Positions 29,605 to 38,569 of a stretch of 64,000 nucleotides of DNA are shown here, in pieces; position 1 is the first letter of the stretch; each line of letters starts with the position of its first letter. The notes beneath the pieces were generated by a model. The model searched no databases. It saw only the letters and a program-made list of their open reading frames with translations, and was not told the DNA's origin. The DNA lies in NCBI RefSeq assembly GCF_900107435.1, contig NZ_FNPZ01000001.1, positions 1,212,960-1,276,959 on the forward strand. Reading direction: 5' to 3'. Made by a program: the position numbers and the translations under genes. The stretch is from Herbiconiux ginsengi. GTDB taxonomy: Bacteria; Actinomycetota; Actinomycetes; Actinomycetales; Microbacteriaceae.

Positions 29605-30915
29605 GTGCCCGATTCCCCTTCCGTCTCCCCTCCCGCGTCGGCGCCGCTCGCGCGGCGGCTCGGTCTCGGCGACGCCGTCTTCATCGGTCTGGGCGCCATG
29701 ATCGGCGCCGGCATCTTCTCGGCCTTCACCCCGGCGGCTGCGGCAGCGGGTTCGGGGCTCCTCATCGGGCTGGTGGTGGCGGCCGTGGTCGCCTTCTGCA
29801 ACGCGACCTCGTCGGCGCAGCTGGCCGCGGTGTATCCCTCCGCGGGGGGAACCTACGTCTACGGTCGCGAACGCCTCGGCCCCTGGTGGGGGTTCGCCGC
29901 GGGCTGGAGTTTCGTGATCGGCAAGACCGCCAGTTGCGCGGCCATGGCGCTCACTTTCGCGGCCTACGCGGTGCCGGATGCGTGGGCCCGGCCGGTCGCA
30001 GCGCTCGCCGTGGCCGCACTGGTCACCGTGAACTACTTCGGGGTGACGCGCACGGCGAGGCTGGCGCGGGTGATCGTGGTGGTGGTGCTGGCGATCCTGG
30101 CGGTCGTCGTGGCATCCGGAGTCGTGGCGGGCGTGGCCGGTGCGGGCACCGGCGCTGACGCGGCCGGTGGGTTCGCCGGGCTCGGCGCCGGCACGCTCGG
30201 CGCGGGCGGCCTCTACGGTGTGCTCCAAGCCGCTGGACTCCTCTTCTTCGCCTTCGCCGGATACGCGCGCATCGCCACCATGGGCGAAGAGGTGCGCGAC
30301 CCGGCCCGCACCATTCCCCGCGCCATCACGATCGCGTTCATCGTGGCGGTGGTGGTCTACGCTGCCATCGCCGTCGTCACGCTTGGCGCGCTGTCGCCGG
30401 CCGGGGTGGCCGCAACGGCGAATCCGCTCACGGCGACGGTCGAGGCCAACGGCTGGGCGTGGGCGGTGCCGATCGTCACCGTCGGTGCGGCGCTGGCGTC
30501 GCTCGGCGCGCTGCTCGCCCTGATCGCCGGGATCGGGCGCACTTCCCTCGCCATGGCCCGTGAAGGCGACCTTCCGCGCTGGCTCAGCGCCGTGCATCCG
30601 CGCTATTCGGTGCCGCACCGGGCCGAGCTCGTGCTGGGTGGAATCGTCGTGCTGCTGGTGCTCACGGTCGATCTGCGCGGCGCGATCGGATTCTCCTCGT
30701 TCGGTGTGCTCCTCTACTACTTCGTGGCCAACCTCTCCGCGTTCACGCAGCCGCGCGCCCAGCGGCGGTACTGGCGCTGGTTGGCGGTGCTCGGCGCGGT
30801 CGGCTGCGTGGTACTCGTGGTGACGCTGCCGCCGCTCGCGGTCGCGGTGGGCGCCGCAGTTCTGGCAGCAGGCATCCTGCTGCGCCTCCTGCTGCGTGCC
30901 CGCGCGGCCCGCTGA
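29605..30915 (+). CDS. APC-superfamily amino acid permease
   Basis: 436 residues with about twelve helices. The APC consensus is in GLGDAVFIGLGAMIGAGIFSAFTPA at the first helix, and FFAFAGYARIATMGEEVRDPARTIPRAI marks helix 6 and the following loop. It is likely a proton-coupled amino acid importer; specificity is not readable. GTG at 29605 is chosen because TACAGT (29592-29597) is 7 nt upstream; a GTG three codons earlier would lie inside that hexamer. Confidence 0.88.
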   Translation: MPDSPSVSPPASAPLARRLGLGDAVFIGLGAMIGAGIFSAFTPAAAAAGSGLLIGLVVAAVVAFCNATSSAQLAAVYPSAGGTYVYGRERLGPWWGFAAGWSFVIGKTASCAAMALTFAAYAVPDAWARPVAALAVAALVTVNYFGVTRTARLARVIVVVVLAILAVVVASGVVAGVAGAGTGADAAGGFAGLGAGTLGAGGLYGVLQAAGLLFFAFAGYARIATMGEEVRDPARTIPRAITIAFIVAVVVYAAIAVVTLGALSPAGVAATANPLTATVEANGWAWAVPIVTVGAALASLGALLALIAGIGRTSLAMAREGDLPRWLSAVHPRYSVPHRAELVLGGIVVLLVLTVDLRGAIGFSSFGVLLYYFVANLSAFTQPRAQRRYWRWLAVLGAVGCVVLVVTLPPLAVAVGAAVLAAGILLRLLLRARAAR

Positions 30916-30940
30916 CTCCCGCGCCCCGGAGCAGGGCGAA

Positions 30941-30970
30941 GCGGGGCGTCGCGTGGTGGCGACACCCCGC
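30941..30970. terminator. Convergent hairpin terminator
   Basis: GCGGGGCGTCGC and GCGACACCCCGC form a 12-bp stem with one mismatch and a 6-nt loop, between the permease and the chaplin-like gene that face each other. Confidence 0.7.
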
Positions 30971-30996
30971 CGGGTCGAGCGTTCAGCGCAGTGCGC

Positions 30997-32556
30997 TCAG
31001 TGGCTCGACCCTTCCCCCCGGCCTGTGCGGCGCGTGACAGCGATCAGCCCGAGACCCAGCAGCATCATGAGCGCGATGCCGCCGAGGAGCGGCATCGGGT
31101 TTCCCCCCGTGAGGGCGAGGCTGCCGGATGCGGTTCCCGAGTCGCTCGCGAGAGCCGAGCTCGAGTAGCCGGCCGGCACCGAGGTGCCCGGTTCCGTCGG
31201 CGATCCCGGGGTCACCGGCGTGCCCGGGTCGACCGGGTTGGTCGGCGTTCCGGGGTCCGTCGGGTCGGTGGGGTCGGTCGGGTCCGTGGGGTCCGTCGGA
31301 TCGGTCGGATCCCCCGGGTCGGTCACCGTTGATCCCGTGGTGGTGCAGTCACCGACGACGCAGACCGCGTTGCCGCCGACCGTGACCGGAAGCGAGACAC
31401 CCGGGATGATCTGGTTGCCGCCCAGAATCCCGTCGTCTCCGCCGGTCACCGGGTCACCGCTGCCAGACCCGGTGGTCGCGGTGACCTCCGAGCCCGAGGA
31501 CTCGGCGTCGCCGATGACCGAGACGGCGTTGCCGCCGACGGTCACCGGGACGCCCAGGTCGGGCAGCACTTGGTTGCCGCCGGCGATGCCGTCCTCACCC
31601 GTGGTGGTGGTGCCGTCTCCGGCAGCGGAGCCGCCGTTGCCGCCGGCGGTGGTGACGTCGGAGCCGCTCGACGAGGAGTCGCCGATGACGCTGATGCCGT
31701 TGCCGCCCACCGTCACGGGCGCGCCGATCTCGGGGGCGATCTGGTTGCCGCCCGCGATGCCGTCTTCGCCGGTGGTGGTGGCGCCGGTGGCGGAGCCGCC
31801 GTTGCCGCCGGCGGTGGTGACGTCGGAGCCGCTCGACGAGGAGTCGCCGATGACGCTGATGCCGTTGCCGCCCACCGTCACCGGCGCGCCGACCGCGATG
31901 GGCAGCTGGTTGCCACCCGCCACGCCGTCCTCGCCGGAGGTGGTGAGGCCGGAGCCGGTGCCCGCGGAGGGCGCCGATCCGGTGCTGGTGTTCGAGGCAT
32001 CCGTCGACTCCGAATCGCCGATGACCGAGACGGCGTTGCCACCCACGACCACGGGCACCGACACGTCGACCGGCACCTGGTTGCCGCCGGCCACGCTGTC
32101 GTCGCCCGAGGTCTCGGCCGGAGCCGGAGCGGGCGCCTCAGCGGGCGTCGGGTCGGCGACCGGAGCAGCCGAGTCCGTCGCCGAATCGCTGCTCGACGAA
32201 TCCCCGATGACCGAGATCGCGTTACCGCCGATCGTGATCGGCACGTCGACATCGACGACCGCCTGATTTCCGCCGATCAGCGAATCCGCGCCGTCGGTCG
32301 AGACGTCGACGGAGGGCGTCGCCGCGGGAGCGGAATCCACCGCAGCCGACGAGTCGCTGCTCGACGAATCCCCGACGACCGCGACCCCGTTGCCACTGAG
32401 GTCGATCGGCAGGCCCACGTGGATGATGGCCTGGTTGCCGGATGCCGCGCCGTCGTCGCCACTGGTCTCAGCGGCGTTCGCAACTCCCGCGCCGAGGACG
32501 CACAGGCCCCCGGTGATGAGGACTGTCCACAGCCCTCTCGAGACGTACTTGTTCAT
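30997..32556 (-). CDS. Chaplin-like wall protein with seven repeats and an LAXTG sorting signal
   Basis: 519 residues. A signal peptide ending near VANAA is followed by seven chaplin-type repeats of the pattern GGNQxxxxxxxPVxVGGNxxSVIGDS, separated by Ser/Thr/Gly linkers. The last repeat has two cysteines (AVCVVGDC), like the disulfide pair of streptomycete chaplins; the others have none. A DPTDPTDP linker, LALTG (480-484), a hydrophobic helix and RRTGR follow, an LAXTG sorting signal as used by class E sortases. It should be a covalently attached, surface-active or amyloid-forming wall protein. AGGGAGAA precedes the ATG. A sortase gene is not in the window. Confidence 0.88.
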   Translation of the reverse strand: MNKYVSRGLWTVLITGGLCVLGAGVANAAETSGDDGAASGNQAIIHVGLPIDLSGNGVAVVGDSSSSDSSAAVDSAPAATPSVDVSTDGADSLIGGNQAVVDVDVPITIGGNAISVIGDSSSSDSATDSAAPVADPTPAEAPAPAPAETSGDDSVAGGNQVPVDVSVPVVVGGNAVSVIGDSESTDASNTSTGSAPSAGTGSGLTTSGEDGVAGGNQLPIAVGAPVTVGGNGISVIGDSSSSGSDVTTAGGNGGSATGATTTGEDGIAGGNQIAPEIGAPVTVGGNGISVIGDSSSSGSDVTTAGGNGGSAAGDGTTTTGEDGIAGGNQVLPDLGVPVTVGGNAVSVIGDAESSGSEVTATTGSGSGDPVTGGDDGILGGNQIIPGVSLPVTVGGNAVCVVGDCTTTGSTVTDPGDPTDPTDPTDPTDPTDPTDPGTPTNPVDPGTPVTPGSPTEPGTSVPAGYSSSALASDSGTASGSLALTGGNPMPLLGGIALMMLLGLGLIAVTRRTGRGEGSSH

Positions 32557-32643
32557 GGTGATTTCTCCCTAACGATTGAATGAGGTGTGCTCCCCGGGGG
32601 GAGACGTCGGTCCGTGCTCCGCGTGGGGCGGAGCCGGGCTCAT

Positions 32644-33741
32644 TCAGTCGGGAGAGACGTCGGTGTCGTAGCAGGGCGACGACGGCAGTGCGTCGTCGGA
32701 GGCGGCGCCGGACAGGGCTGCGCGGGCCGGCGCGAAGAATCCGCCGCCCCAGAGATCAGAACTCGCGGTCGCGCCGCCGTGGGCCGTCAGGGTGCCGCCG
32801 CTCGACGAACCGGACGACGGCAGCGCGCCGCCGCCCGACCCGAACGGCCCCGGCCCCCCGGGCCACCCGCCCCCCGGTGACCCGGGCGAGCCACCGGCTC
32901 CCGGAACGAGGCCCATATCCGCGGCGCCCCCTGCACCTGCCGCGCCCTCGCCCGGGGAGCCGTGGCCGCCCCGATCCCCCTGATCGGATGCCCCCAGCGC
33001 ACCCGAGACCGCACCGGCCGCCGCGGCGAGAGCCCCCGCCGCTGTGCCGGTGACCGCGGTGCCGGGACCCGATCCGGCACCACTTCCTGCACCGACGGTG
33101 CCACCCGAACCATCGCTGCCGCCCAGGGCGCCCGGCGTGCCGGGCACGGGGAGCCCGGGAAGCTCCGGGAGCAGCCCGGCCGCGCCATCCGTCACCGGAT
33201 CGACGACCGCGTGCACGACGGGCGCAAGCGCTCCGCCCACTCCGCCGAGCGCGTCATCCACCGCTCCCGTCACGGGCGACGTCAGCGACCCGGCGGGCGC
33301 CGAACCGATCACATCAGGCACGACCGGCAGAGCGGCGACCACGCCATCCACGGCGTCGGTCACCGGCTCGGCCACGGTCGACACCGGATCGGACGCGGCG
33401 ACCTCGCCGAGCACATCCGTCAGCTGGGGAACCGTCGCGACGACCTCGGCGACGGGCTCCGGCAGGAGGTTCGCCACCGGTTCGAGCACCTGATCGCTCA
33501 CGCCGGCCACGACGGCGCCGACCGTGGAGCCCGTGGAGCCCGTGGAGTCGACCAGATCGGAGACCGAGCCGAGCAGGGATCCGGACGACGAAGAGGATCC
33601 GGCGGGCGGAGCGCTCTCCTCGGCCGATGCGGACGACGATCCGAAGACCGCTCCGAGCACGAGCAGGCCACCGACCGCTGCGAGAGCTCCGAGTCCGAGG
33701 CGCAGAAGGCGTCGTGACCGCTCTTCAGTTGCGTGTTCCAC
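32644..33741 (-). CDS. Exported low-complexity protein next to the chaplin-like gene
   Basis: About 365 residues. A basic start (EERSRRLLRLG) and a hydrophobic segment ending FGSSSASA give a signal peptide or anchor. Then come repeated hydrophobic Pro/Val units (EPVAEVVATVPQL, EPVTDAVDGVVAALPVVPD, DPVTDGAAGLLPELPG) and a Gly/Ser/Pro-rich C-terminal half ending CYDTDVSPD. No known domain was recognised. The GTG at 33741 is chosen because AGGGGG lies 8 nt upstream; a GTG three codons earlier is possible. It lies just upstream of the chaplin-like gene on the same strand, so a shared surface role is likely. Confidence 0.6.
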   Translation of the reverse strand: MEHATEERSRRLLRLGLGALAAVGGLLVLGAVFGSSSASAEESAPPAGSSSSSGSLLGSVSDLVDSTGSTGSTVGAVVAGVSDQVLEPVANLLPEPVAEVVATVPQLTDVLGEVAASDPVSTVAEPVTDAVDGVVAALPVVPDVIGSAPAGSLTSPVTGAVDDALGGVGGALAPVVHAVVDPVTDGAAGLLPELPGLPVPGTPGALGGSDGSGGTVGAGSGAGSGPGTAVTGTAAGALAAAAGAVSGALGASDQGDRGGHGSPGEGAAGAGGAADMGLVPGAGGSPGSPGGGWPGGPGPFGSGGGALPSSGSSSGGTLTAHGGATASSDLWGGGFFAPARAALSGAASDDALPSSPCYDTDVSPD

Positions 33742-33822
33742 GACAGTCACCCCCTGCGCAGGAACCGGGCATCCCTCGTCGGATGCCCTGCTGTCATCGA
33801 CCTTTCTCTCCTGAAACGGCCC

Positions 33823-33828
33823 TGTCAA
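33823..33828 (-). promoter_or_regulatory. TTGACA -35 element upstream of the low-complexity protein
   Basis: A consensus TTGACA on the minus strand, within GGGGGTTGACA. The best -10 at 17-bp spacing is weak (AAAGGT). The same GGGGGTTGACA string recurs on the plus strand at 35023-35033. Confidence 0.4.
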
Positions 33829-33875
33829 CCCCCTTGCGCGATCCGAATTGGGGATTTCTCACGCCGGGTGAGCGC

Positions 33876-33915
33876 GAGAGAGGGGCCGTCGCGCAAGGCG
33901 ATCGGCCCCTCTCAG
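33876..33915 (-). terminator. Terminator after the sigma factor gene
   Basis: GAGAGGGGCCG (33878-33888) pairs with CGGCCCCTCTC (33903-33913), and an inner TCGC/GCGA stem lies in the loop. It sits about 45 nt after the sigma factor stop. Confidence 0.75.
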
Positions 33916-33958
33916 ACCCACGCGATGGCGGGAGCGGGCAACCCTTGACGGGCGTTCG

Positions 33959-34942
33959 TCACGCGATGAGGTAGTCGTGCAGCGACTCGTCGCGGAGCAT
34001 CCCGAGGGCACGCCGCTGGATCTGGCGTGCGCGCTCCCGGCTCACTCCGAGGGCCTCGCCGATCTGGTCGAACGACATCGGGTCCTCTCCGTCGAGCCCG
34101 AAGCGCATGCACACCACCCGCGCTTCGCGGGACGGCAGGGTCGCCAAGGCGACGGCCAGGTCGTGGTGCTGCAGCGTGGCGGCGGCCGCATCGAAGGGCT
34201 GGGCCTGCGAGGTGTCCTCGATCAGGTCGCCCAGCTCGGCGTCGTCGTCGCCCACCGGGGTGTGGATCGACACGGTGTCGCGACCGTGACGCAGCAATTC
34301 CTGCACCTTGGCGGGCGGCAGGTCGACGGCGTCGGCGACCTCGGCGATCGAGGGCTCCCGGCCGAGCTCGATGACGAGCCGGCGCTGCATCCGCGTGATC
34401 GAGGAGATCTTCTCCGACGTGTGCACCGGGATGCGGATGATGCGACCGCTGTCGGCCAGGGCTCGGTTGATGGCCTGCTTGATCCACCAGGAGCCGTAGG
34501 TCGAGAACTTGAACCCGGCCTGGTAGTCGAACTTCTCGACCGCGCGCACGAGGCCGATATTGCCCTCCTGGATGAGGTCGAGGAAGGGGAGCCCGCGCTC
34601 GAGGTAGCGCTTGGCGATCGAGACGACGAGTCGCAGATTCGCCTGGATGAGCTTGCGCTTGGCAGCCTTGCCGTCGCGGGCCAGCCACTCGAGCTCGCGC
34701 TTCAGCGTGGCGTCCAGGACGGGGTTGCTGGCGAGCTTCGCGTCGGCGAGCACGCCCACCTCGATGCGGCGGCCGAGGTCGACCTCTTCTTCTGCGGAGA
34801 GCAGGGCGGTGCGACCGATCTGGCGGAGGTAGTCCTTCACCGGATCTTCCGAGGCCCCACGGATGTTCGTGAGGCGTGCCTCCGGCTCGCCTTCGTCGAC
34901 CTGTGCCTCCGGCATCGTCGTCGTTACTCCTGAGCGTGACAT
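33959..34942 (-). CDS. Group 2 sigma-70 factor (SigB/HrdB-like)
   Basis: 327 residues. Region 1.2 ([31 protein letters not shown]), region 2 ([37 protein letters not shown], then [18 protein letters not shown]) and region 4 with the helix-turn-helix ([24 protein letters not shown]) are complete. The region 1.1 extension of primary sigma factors is missing, so this is a non-essential RpoD-like factor, often for stationary phase or stress. The ATG at 34942 has GGAG 6 nt upstream; another ATG two codons earlier touches that site. It is upstream of two surface-protein genes on the same strand. Confidence 0.92.
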
Positions 34943-35004
34943 CTTCATCTCCGTAACTGATCCGTATCCCGGTTGTTCGTCACGCTATCGCCGCAACCGC
35001 CTCC

Positions 35005-35071
35005 CCCCAAAATGGGGTGGAGGGGGGTTGACAAGGGGACGATTTAACGGCATATAGCTAGACCAACTAGC
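35005..35071 (+). promoter_or_regulatory. Promoter/operator region between the sigma factor and a His-rich membrane protein
   Basis: The region contains CCCCAAAATGGGG (35005-35017), TTGACA (35028-35033), a TATAGC hexamer (35053-35058, 19-bp spacer) and the small inverted repeat GCTAGACCAACTAGC (35057-35071). The start of the plus-strand gene also has its own leaderless TATGCT at 35102. The arrangement suggests two promoters or an operator-controlled one. Confidence 0.4.
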
Positions 35072-35112
35072 ATTTCGAAGTCTGGCCCATCCGGTTTCTC
35101 CTATGCTGGAGC

Positions 35113-35763
35113 GTGAGGATCGAAGGGCGCAGGATGACCGGCAGAGGGATGCGCGTCGCTCGCGGCCTGACCGCCGCCGGCGTCGCCGTCTTCGTCGCCG
35201 CGTTCTCCCACGCCGCCGCAGGCGGGGGAGCGCCGGGCGCCGTCGGGCTCGCGCTCGCGCTGGCATTGTCCGCGGTGGTCTGCGTCGTCTTGGCTCGCCG
35301 CCGACTGTCGTTGCCGTTGCTCGCCATCTCAGTCTTGATCAGCCAGTTCGCGCTGCACATGCTGTTCGGGGTAGGGACCGGCTCGGGCTCGGGCCTCGTG
35401 CTGACCCAGACCACGCATCACGGGCACATCGCGCTGGCCGCGGTGACGGATGCGTCGACCGTCGCCGCGCATCCGGGTCACGATTCCGGATGGATGTGGC
35501 TGGGGCACGCGCTCGCCGCCGCTGCGACGATCGCACTGCTGCACCGGGGTGAGCGCACGCTGCGCGATCTGCTCCTTCTCGCCCGCGCCCGGCTCGGAAT
35601 CGTCTGGGCGCTCCTGAGGCTCGCGTTCTCGGAGCCTGTTCCCGCGCGGTCGCAGACGCACGCATCCGGTCTTCCGGTGGTCGATCGGCTGCGCGACCTC
35701 GGTGTGCTGCTCGGCAGCCGTCGGCATCGCGGTCCGCCGGCGAGGGTCGCCGTGCACCTCTAG
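35113..35763 (+). CDS. His-rich multi-pass membrane protein beside copper genes
   Basis: 216 residues with about four helices in the first two thirds. Two periplasmic-side histidine clusters are seen: TQTTHHGHIALA and AAHPGHDSGWMWLGHAL, the sort of pattern found in copper-binding membrane proteins. No named family was recognised with confidence. The GTG start has TATGCT 5 nt upstream. It is followed by ycnI and copC in the same direction, so a copper role is a fair inference. Confidence 0.6.
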   Translation: MRIEGRRMTGRGMRVARGLTAAGVAVFVAAFSHAAAGGGAPGAVGLALALALSAVVCVVLARRRLSLPLLAISVLISQFALHMLFGVGTGSGSGLVLTQTTHHGHIALAAVTDASTVAAHPGHDSGWMWLGHALAAAATIALLHRGERTLRDLLLLARARLGIVWALLRLAFSEPVPARSQTHASGLPVVDRLRDLGVLLGSRRHRGPPARVAVHL

Positions 35764-35840
35764 ACTCCGTCGGTCGACACCGGTGGGGAGTCGGTGTGCG
35801 CGCGTGCTCGCTCCGCCATCTCTCACCGAAGGACAGATCG

Positions 35841-36656
35841 ATGAATCCCCGTACCCTTTCGCGCGCCGCGACTCTCGGCGCCGCAACCCTGCTCGCGACC
35901 GCAGCCGTCGTCGTGGGCGCGCCCCTGGCCGCTTCTGCGCACGTCCGAGTCGACCCCGGGCAGGCCGTGCCCGGTAGCTACACCACCCTCACGTTCAAGG
36001 TGCCGAACGAGTCGGCCACCGCGAGCACGATGCGGCTCGAGGTCGACCTGCCGGCCGACACGCCGTTCACGAGCGTCTCCTACCGGCCCGTTCCCGGGTG
36101 GAGCGCCCAGGTGATCACCGGCACCCTGCCGAGTCCGATCACCACGGGCGATGCGACCATCACCGAGGCGCCGCTCTCCGTGGTGTGGACCGCGGATGCC
36201 GGCACCGCGGGCGTCGCGCCCGGCCAGTTCCAGGAGTTCCCGATCTCGGTCGGGCCGGTGCCCGACACGGGGTCGGTGGTGCTGCCCGCCCATCAGGGCT
36301 ACTCCGACGGCAGCACCGTCGACTGGGCGGAGCCGACGCCGGCCTCGGGGGAGGAGCCGGAGCATCCGGCGCCCACCCTCTACATCACCGAGGCCCCTCC
36401 CGCCTCGGAAGAGGATGGAGCTGCGACGGTCACGGCGGGCGCGGGCGGTGATGCGGATGCGGCAGGCGGTTCGGATGCGGCAGCAGTCTCGAGTGCTGAC
36501 GGCGCGGCATCGCTGGCGCTCGGCTTCGGTATCGGGGGTCTCGTGCTCGGGGCCCTGGCGCTGGTGCTGGCGGCGGTCGCCGTGCTCCGTCGTCCGGCCC
36601 GCACTGCGCCGGCCGCCGCGACTGCTCCGGCTCCCGACTCCCCGGACGCGAAGTGA
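35841..36656 (+). CDS. ycnI: YcnI-like (DUF1775) copper-binding surface protein
   Basis: 271 residues. The signal peptide is expected to be cut before His in LAASAHVRVDPGQAVPGSYTT; an N-terminal histidine is the key copper ligand in YcnI. The DUF1775 core includes YRPVPGWSAQVITGTL and ends near PAPTLYI. A Ser/Ala/Gly-rich linker, one C-terminal helix (about 233-257) and a basic tail anchor it to the membrane. The ATG at 35841 follows GAAGGACAG. It overlaps copC by 4 nt, the usual ycnI-copC pair. Confidence 0.9.
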   Translation: MNPRTLSRAATLGAATLLATAAVVVGAPLAASAHVRVDPGQAVPGSYTTLTFKVPNESATASTMRLEVDLPADTPFTSVSYRPVPGWSAQVITGTLPSPITTGDATITEAPLSVVWTADAGTAGVAPGQFQEFPISVGPVPDTGSVVLPAHQGYSDGSTVDWAEPTPASGEEPEHPAPTLYITEAPPASEEDGAATVTAGAGGDADAAGGSDAAAVSSADGAASLALGFGIGGLVLGALALVLAAVAVLRRPARTAPAAATAPAPDSPDAK

Positions 36657-37366: not shown

Positions 37367-38466
37367 TCAGAACGAGCATGGAGTGAGGGCGGCGACCGCG
37401 GGGGTGAGCGACAGCGGTCCGCCGAGGAGGATCACGTTCTTCGTGCCTTTGCTGGAGAGCAGCGCGAGCACGCCCGTGGGGACGCAATCCGGCGGCACGA
37501 CGAACATTGGGGAGTGCGTCTTGGCCGCGAGAACACCACCGGCGAGCGCGTCGGGGTAGTTCGCGCCCGTGGCCAGGTAGACCGTCGTGTAGTCGGGGCG
37601 TCGAACCCGGCCAGATTCAGAGACACCTCGTACCGGTTCGCTCCCGTCACTCGAAGCACGCCGCCCCCGGGATTGATCGTGCTCTGGATGCCGTCCGAGA
37701 CGGACGTGGGCCCACCCACGATCGTCACGATGAAGGCGTTCAGGTCGCGCAGCAATGTCACCGTCGGCCCGTCGGCGAATGCCGCCCCGCCATCGACTAG
37801 GAGGACCGGAACTCTGACCGCTCCCGCGACCGCTCCCGCCGAGAGGGCGTCGGGAAAGTCTCGGCCGGTGGCAACCATGACGCCCGTCACGCCGTCGGGG
37901 TAGGCGTCGGCGACCACGGCGCGGCTGACCGCATACCGGTCGCTGCCGGAGATACGCGACACGAGTGCGTGCGGAGCGAGGGTGCGAACCGTGGCGACGA
38001 CGGCATCCGACACGGAGGCGGGTCCTCCGATGACCTTGACCACCAGTGGATCGAGGCGGGTGAGAGATGCGGCCACCGAGGCGGGCACGCTGTCCGGTGG
38101 CACGAGCAGCAACGGGGCGAAGTTCACGCTGGCGGCCGGTCCGGCGCTCAGGGCGTCGGGAAAGGAGGCTCCGGATGCGAGGTACACGACGTTCGACGCT
38201 CCGGGGCTGACCCGTTTTCCGATCTCCGCCGCGAGGTCGTAGCGGTCGGCCGCACTGATCCGCGACACCGAGACCGACAGCTCGCTGCCCGAGCTGGGTG
38301 GGTCATCCGAAGCATCTCCTCCGACGCCGGACGCCTGCGCGATGCCGCCGCTCCCAAGGCTGGTGGCGACGATCGCGACGATGAACGCCGCGATTCCCCC
38401 GGATCGGATCCCGCGCCTGACTCGGCTTGTCCTGTGGCGCGCGGAAGCCGTGGTCTGTACACCCAT
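37367..38466 (-). pseudogene. CWB2 surface protein with a frameshift near its 3' end
   Basis: Starting at MGVQTTASAR, the frame gives a signal peptide (IAAFIVAIVATSLGSGGIAQA) and two CWB2 repeats (RISAADRYDLAAEIG..., RISGSDRYAVSRAVV...), then a third starting RVTGANRYEVSLNLAGF. At the C4 run 37595-37598 the frame is lost. A 1-nt shift restores YTTVYLATGANYPDALAGG and a proper end ALTPCSF at 37367. The restored tail, with PPDCVP and LTPC, matches the tail of the CWB2 protein ending at 59307. It is a recent mutation, a sequencing error in the homopolymer, or phase variation. Confidence 0.85.
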
Positions 38467-38569
38467 GTTCGACTCGATTCCCCATCGTGGCCCTCTGCCC
38501 CATGCAGCCCCCGACCTCGATGGTCTGACCATAACCATCGGGCTTCGATAAGTCGATGATTCCTCGACT

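Follow-up and report, generated by a model that had tools for sequence, protein, structure and literature searches.

Chaplins have been treated mainly as tools of aerial growth, and a chaplin-like gene with seven repeats and a sorting signal in Herbiconiux ginsengi, a member of the mostly unicellular Microbacteriaceae, raises the question of what such a protein is for in cells of this kind. In this analysis, we follow the gene in a stretch of 64,000 nucleotides (contig NZ_FNPZ01000001.1, positions 1,212,960 to 1,276,959; hereafter the window), in its genome (4.85 Mb, 99.85% complete) and across the family, where the best named relatives are those from Herbiconiux oxytropis (L045) and H. daphne (L046). 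An earlier note on this DNA had stressed the repeats; the conserved gene directly upstream, which is absent from that note, is with its C-terminal tail the part worth following, rather than the repeat count.

Architecture of the repeat protein

The open reading frame (Table 1) starts with an ATG preceded by GGGAGAA. Behind the signal peptide (MNKYVSRGLWTVLITGGLCVLGAGVANA, delimited by eye) it encodes seven repeats and a DPT linker; the sorting motif LALTG comes next, and then a hydrophobic helix with the basic end RRTGR. The repeats begin at about residues 31, 87, 149, 206, 261, 318, and 371, follow the form GNQ-x11-(G/S)GN-x5-GD(S/A/C) in all seven cases, and share 46-80% pairwise identity over 35 residues. 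The protein matches the Pfam family ChpA-C at 54.9 bits (cut-off 21; E 8e-15) in seven stretches, in line with the placing of the repeats in the chaplin family by the earlier note, whose reading of the architecture also holds; the same family gave no match in 14 control genomes, and at E 0.01 the profile recognises 24 of the 28 three-repeat segments of A3. No NCBIfam model matches the chaplin or its neighbouring partner gene, and the Gram_pos_anchor profile scores 13.4 on the chaplin, under its cut-off of 20.

Table 1. Features of the chaplin-like locus, in window coordinates
Feature	Position	Strand	Basis
Multi-repeat LAXTG chaplin, 519 aa	30997..32556	-	ORF translation, Pfam match, residue positions
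Chaplin-like repeat 1	32362..32466	-	GNQ/GGN spacing; seven Pfam stretches
Repeat 2	32194..32298	-	GNQ/GGN spacing
Repeat 3	32008..32112	-	GNQ/GGN spacing
Repeat 4	31837..31941	-	GNQ/GGN spacing
Repeat 5	31672..31776	-	Protein 80% identical to repeat 4
Repeat 6	31501..31605	-	GNQ/GGN spacing
Repeat 7, with CVVGDC pair (Cys399, Cys404)	31342..31446	-	Off canonical chaplin cysteine positions
Pro/Thr/Asp-rich linker, presumed wall-spanning	31123..31320 (ends approximate)	-	Translation
LALTG sorting motif (residues 480-484), then hydrophobic helix and RRTGR	31105..31119	-	Translation
Exact direct repeat, copy A, 92 bases	31625..31716	.	DNA comparison
Exact direct repeat, copy B, 92 bases	31790..31881	.	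DNA comparison
Intercistronic region, 87 bases, able to form stem-loops	32557..32643	-	Folding; weak covariation
Partner gene for a secreted protein rich in Val and Pro (about 368 aa)	32644..33750	-	Likely GTG start 33750; frame open to TTG 33828
Conserved C-terminal tail DDALPSSPCYDTDVSPD and stop codon	32644..32697	-	Alignment of tails, motif scan

Because the two direct-repeat copies are identical at 92 of 92 bases (117 of 130 at the same offset of 165), the DNA supports recent tandem duplication behind repeats 4 and 5, in agreement with the earlier note. The mature protein is not hydrophobic overall (GRAVY 0.01, with 55 acidic against 3 basic residues), and its repeat cores, at GRAVY 0.28-0.85, overlap the 0.57-0.80 range of seven canonical chaplin cores. 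AlphaFold2 returned nothing usable for repeats 5-7 (mean pLDDT 43), and a structural reading of the repeats was dropped, the model being too poor; a PDB sequence search with the repeats yielded a single irrelevant match (E 0.63). A scan for promoter and terminator found none, and Rfam detected no known RNA at gathering scores over 30000-36000.

Departures from the canonical chaplin domain

As described in PMC13251363, a chaplin domain has three GN motifs, 12-13 residues apart, and two conserved cysteines, which are not conserved in domain 2 of ChpB. The window repeats, in contrast, have two GN motifs, 15 residues apart, and lack the third; the best of them covers profile positions 9-45 of 57, without the third GN motif or the canonical cysteines. 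Among the loci inspected, canonical domains read CGN-x11-C or CGN-x15-C, and in a class-wide search they resemble VCGNTVNVVGLLNPAVGNTC, with the repeats of family f35 resembling VCGNSVAVAGVSEAEC. In the window protein, the place of the first cysteine is taken by Ser in repeat 1 and by Gly in repeats 2-7. Since domain number, third GN motif, and cysteines deviate from the family definition, we call the protein a multi-repeat chaplin variant; with neither canonical cysteines nor a third GN motif in its repeats, amyloid assembly is not to be assumed. Most likely, the protein works like a long chaplin.

The protein has three cysteines, at residue 19 in the signal peptide and at residues 399 and 404. 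The last two both lie in repeat 7, so the observation that only the last repeat has a cysteine pair stands; they do not form the chaplin pair, since they occupy other positions (GGNAVCVVGDC, that is, GGNAV-C-VVGD-C), and a canonical pair in repeat 7 was rejected. Nine loci of the genus were compared: the CVVGDC motif occurs in seven (G000, G001, G002, G006, G007, G009, and G013) and is absent from G010 and from G014, whose reading frame is cut by a contig end; two of 63 named loci carry it, both from Herbiconiux. Judged by position and distribution, the pair is a separate, lineage-specific feature, because among the loci scanned only Herbiconiux has it. Cysteine pairs somewhat like that of repeat 7 (CLVIGATC or CLDLGLLGSTSGSC) are seen in and after the repeats of the non-chaplin repeat proteins downstream in L126 and L127.

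Spread in the family and sortases

Searched with the single Pfam domain, 9 of 16 genus genomes and 84 of 398 family genomes yield chaplin repeats. A profile built from family repeats (A1) is positive in 122 of the 398 at E 1e-5; among the matches listed, the median for these genomes is seven, a per-genome count that may miss repeats or sum two loci (as in G295). Multi-repeat chaplins are thus normal within Microbacteriaceae, about three in ten of the sampled members carrying a repeat-rich chaplin without canonical cysteines, and the repeat count of the window protein, which the earlier note had presented as an oddity, is ordinary. No short chaplin was found in the window genome, PF03777 matching this locus alone, and a 40-aa repeat query recovers its seven repeats plus one non-significant match (E 1.6). 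Carriage on plasmids was rejected, as a search of 72,556 plasmid records matched neither protein of the locus at E 1e-5. At one locus of Microbacterium arabinogalactanolyticum (L087, 5953-10173, plus strand), an open reading frame of at least 1407 aa has 19 repeat-model matches and no Pfam match.

Sorting signals at the named loci are mostly LAxTG (LALTG, LASTG, LAYTG, LAFTG); LPxTG is present in L099, L131, L135, and L186, and the chaplins of L130 and L132 have no LxxTG near the end. The window genome encodes two sortases. One, which the earlier note had proposed to look for, is of class E, scoring 242 bits with model NF033747 (cut-off 160), and adjoins genes that we take to be pabA- and crgA-like. 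Neither refutation named by that note occurs, because the repeats score as chaplin and the class E sortase is present. The second sortase (L003, 1126-2103, minus strand) falls under every NCBIfam class cut-off, and its neighbours are presumably a phosphate-transporter ATPase gene and genes for secreted proteins. Class E sortases occur in nearly the whole family (357 of its 398 genomes match at E 1e-20, and 351 exceed the cut-off), so that the presence of one lends little support to the chaplin reading, and we rejected it as an argument. By eye, the chaplin-positive genomes G082, G274, and G283 are not among the class E matches at E 1e-20; G082 is rated 100% complete.

A secreted partner with a conserved tail

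Directly upstream of the chaplin lies a gene for a protein in which a signal peptide is followed by a core rich in Val and Pro, then by a stretch of low complexity, and finally by the tail DDALPSSPCYDTDVSPD, whose end follows the pattern LPSSPxxDTDxSPD. Neither Pfam nor NCBIfam has a family for it, and 27 partner proteins compared with Pfam gave one weak DUF7217 match in one member and nothing else; AlphaFold2 predicts a low-confidence helical core (mean pLDDT 57, pTM 0.30). The gene is apparently undescribed, and a search of the open-access literature found nothing on multi-repeat chaplins or on such a partner in this family.

At each of the 63 named loci (L045-L107), the upstream frame closes with some form of the tail; two of these loci (L062 and L065) bear names broader than the family. 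The strict motif P-x7-[DG]-x-[STANV]-P-[DG]-stop, chosen after the tails had been inspected, ends 59 of the 2788 reading frames of 150 aa or more, with a single such frame at each of 59 loci. The four remaining named loci comprise tail variants in L066, L067, and L099 and a broken frame in L097, where the tail lies in a different frame from the one first picked. In 61 aligned tails (the window and 60 others, L048, L053, and L097 having been removed by a filter that itself requires a tail end), Pro is invariant at -2, and 60 of 61 have Asp at -5 and likewise at -1; the tail is kept to the last residue while the body of the protein diverges. At the distant loci L126, L127, L131, L134, and L186, the tail is reduced to the final Pro-Asp, with little else fixed. 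Loci L045-L109 were found by patterns that include MNKYVSRG, which favours that signal peptide; the A1 and partner profile searches were run without it.

Pairing of the two genes across genomes

Among the 398 family genomes, the chaplin profile is positive in 122, the partner profile (A2, built from partners beside chaplins) in 106, and both in 98, a count of co-occurrence and not of adjacency (Fisher p 2e-59, not corrected for relatedness). The members of the genus in this sample are concordant in 11 of 11 cases, six with both genes and five with neither. Ten of the 24 chaplin-only genomes were inspected (G021, G124, G132, G160, G161, G165, G175, G186, G205, and G401), and in each of them some version of the tail closes the reading frame immediately upstream. 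Position -5 is Asp in four and Gly in three (PGSTPD, PGSSPD); the tails of G132, G161, and G186 are looser, but their proteins match the partner profile at 8e-14, 2e-9, and 9e-8. In this family, the partner is present at every chaplin locus inspected for it.

Eight genomes, with nine loci, have the partner only. At seven of these loci, the gene that follows in the same orientation is for a secreted repeat protein of another sort, with a similar signal-peptide-like start and different repeats; a sorting motif is visible in six of these neighbours (LASTG, LATTG, LPQTG, LATTG, LPRTG, and LAYTG), the seventh runs past the end of the stretch examined, and several of the proteins have collagen-like linkers. 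Of the two other loci, L129 stops at a contig edge and L128 is without a recognisable downstream frame of that kind. Across the order, nine of 189 sampled genomes have the partner. Eight belong to this family; in the ninth (G441), from a different family, the partner again lies ahead of a chaplin, one that gives ten matches. At 23 chaplin loci outside the family, no tail was seen within flanks of mostly only about 1.5 kb, in a scan that left out L172-L179.

A proposed two-gene surface cassette and its alternatives

The sequences show which genes are present, the kinship with chaplins, the sorting signal, the sortase, the pairing, and the conservation of the tail; on this ground we consider it an even prospect that chaplin and partner form a two-gene surface cassette, in which an anchored coat is joined by a partner co-assembling through its tail. 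A broader formulation is offered more tentatively: a modular two-component system of surface assembly, spread through Microbacteriaceae and reaching at least one genome in a second family of the order, could combine a secreted partner, whose conserved tail would be an address for docking or sorting, with a repeat protein anchored by a class E sortase, the repeat type being exchangeable (chaplin mostly, other Val/Asp repeats in some). We suggest a modular arrangement because the repeats vary, whereas partner, signal peptide type, and sorting signal stay constant.

From these data we infer anchoring, co-assembly, a role for the tail, and a phenotype, as follows. Both proteins would be exported. 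Because class E sortases are described as specific for LAXTG (PMC5148588), the class E enzyme (SrtE) would be expected to cleave the repeat protein at LALTG and link it to the wall. The DPT linker would then cross the wall, with the seven short, beta-prone repeats displayed outside, where, by kinship with chaplins, they might form an amphipathic layer. The secreted partner may co-assemble with this layer or organise it, its conserved acidic tail acting as the docking part. As partners of this type also adjoin other repeat proteins with sorting signals, the tail probably recognises a feature that such proteins share, or one of the wall. The predicted outcome is a cell surface that is more water-repellent and sticky, favouring attachment and aggregation (the earlier note had suggested biofilm, surface wetting, or attachment as candidate uses); a surface role is suggested because chaplins mediate attachment, which depends on them, in Streptomyces, as reported in PMC8166509. 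If the two proteins cooperate, they would make a simple system for coat assembly without hyphae, with two genes and one sortase, and the conserved tail would offer a concrete peptide for binding studies.

Adjacency is no proof of interaction, and the repeat protein could instead be a plain wall-anchored adhesin or spacer, a beta-turn coat of variable length free of amyloid or surfactant activity, with an independent upstream gene that is merely linked. Differing repeat numbers between genomes, the loss of canonical cysteines and of the third GN motif, and the want of a confident AlphaFold fold all agree with such a spacer; we nevertheless regard it as unlikely, because the pairing is far tighter than chance linkage and the genus is fully concordant. 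Improbable, too, is a tail that serves as a C-terminal export, retention, or processing signal and not as a docking motif, the partner functioning alone beside a protein that is a mere neighbour. Conservation to the last residue over a diverging body would suit a signal of this kind, as in short C-terminal sorting signals, and so would the differing repeat proteins next to the partner and the clearly membrane-helix-like stretch that precedes the tail in L061, L065, L068, and L099. A stretch above GRAVY 1.6, however, precedes the tail in only 8 of 61 partners, and where a general sorting signal should recur on a number of proteins, a search of the window genome with one DNA form of the tail gave three matches, namely the partner, one without a stop, and one reading DYDGLPD before a stop (the backward control gave one).

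The same family profile, the same sortase class, and the overlap in repeat-core hydropathy would also fit a Streptomyces-type surfactant system for aerial growth that wets the cell and breaks surface tension. Aerial hyphae are not known in the genus Herbiconiux, which counts against that function. The early secreted surfactants of Streptomyces are the short ChpE and ChpH (PMC8166509), and the window genome is without detected short chaplins, so that we give a surfactant system very little credence. The two-gene cassette remains our preferred reading.

Comparison with known systems

ChpA-C of Streptomyces coelicolor share with the window protein a signal peptide, ChpA-C repeats, a hydrophilic linker, LAXTG, and a class E sortase; they differ in having two domains instead of seven, and the window system differs from theirs by the absence of detected short chaplins and by its conserved neighbour gene. 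Repeats 1-6 of the window protein contain no cysteine, and repeat 7 has its pair at other positions than the canonical ones. High repeat numbers are also known from another family of the class: the f35 chaplins (L166-L169), probably of Nocardiopsaceae by likeness to L108 and L109, have four GNQ-type repeats and a sorting signal (LAVTG, LPVTG, or LPLTG), which further removes the impression of an unusual count. Unlike the window protein, they have a cysteine pair at the canonical places in every repeat, and no tail was seen in their short flanks.

A chaplin in the absence of aerial growth, the situation pointed out by the earlier note, has a published precedent in Arthrobacter chlorophenolicus, for whose chaplin-like gene a part in attachment was suggested; the portions of that report available to us mention no repeat arrays or partner gene (PMC4255298). 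CwpA and CwpB of Actinoplanes missouriensis are also hydrophobic wall proteins dependent on a class E sortase, but are not chaplins by the source paper's own analysis (PMC13251363). For the partner, the rodlins RdlA and RdlB, described in PMC8166509 as secreted proteins that organise chaplin fibrils, may serve as an analogy only.

The intercistronic region and neighbouring genes

A conserved RNA between the two genes is not claimed, covariation being absent or weak: RNAalifold found no pairs in 52 intercistronic sequences, and 28 sequences of the Curtobacterium type gave 22 pairs, two of them with changes on both sides. Compared with shuffled sequences, the intercistronic regions fold more stably, with a mean z of -2.9 (59 sequences, 48 below -2), the window's own value being -1.8. 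Directly upstream of the partner lies a sigma-70 family gene (33959-34948, minus strand), with homologues of 87-93% identity upstream on the same strand in L045, L046, L047, L059, and L062 and at no other locus within the flanks searched. Further along the window, 37432-38538 (minus strand) encodes a CWB2-type cell-wall binding protein, the C-terminal part of which reads like a shifted frame.
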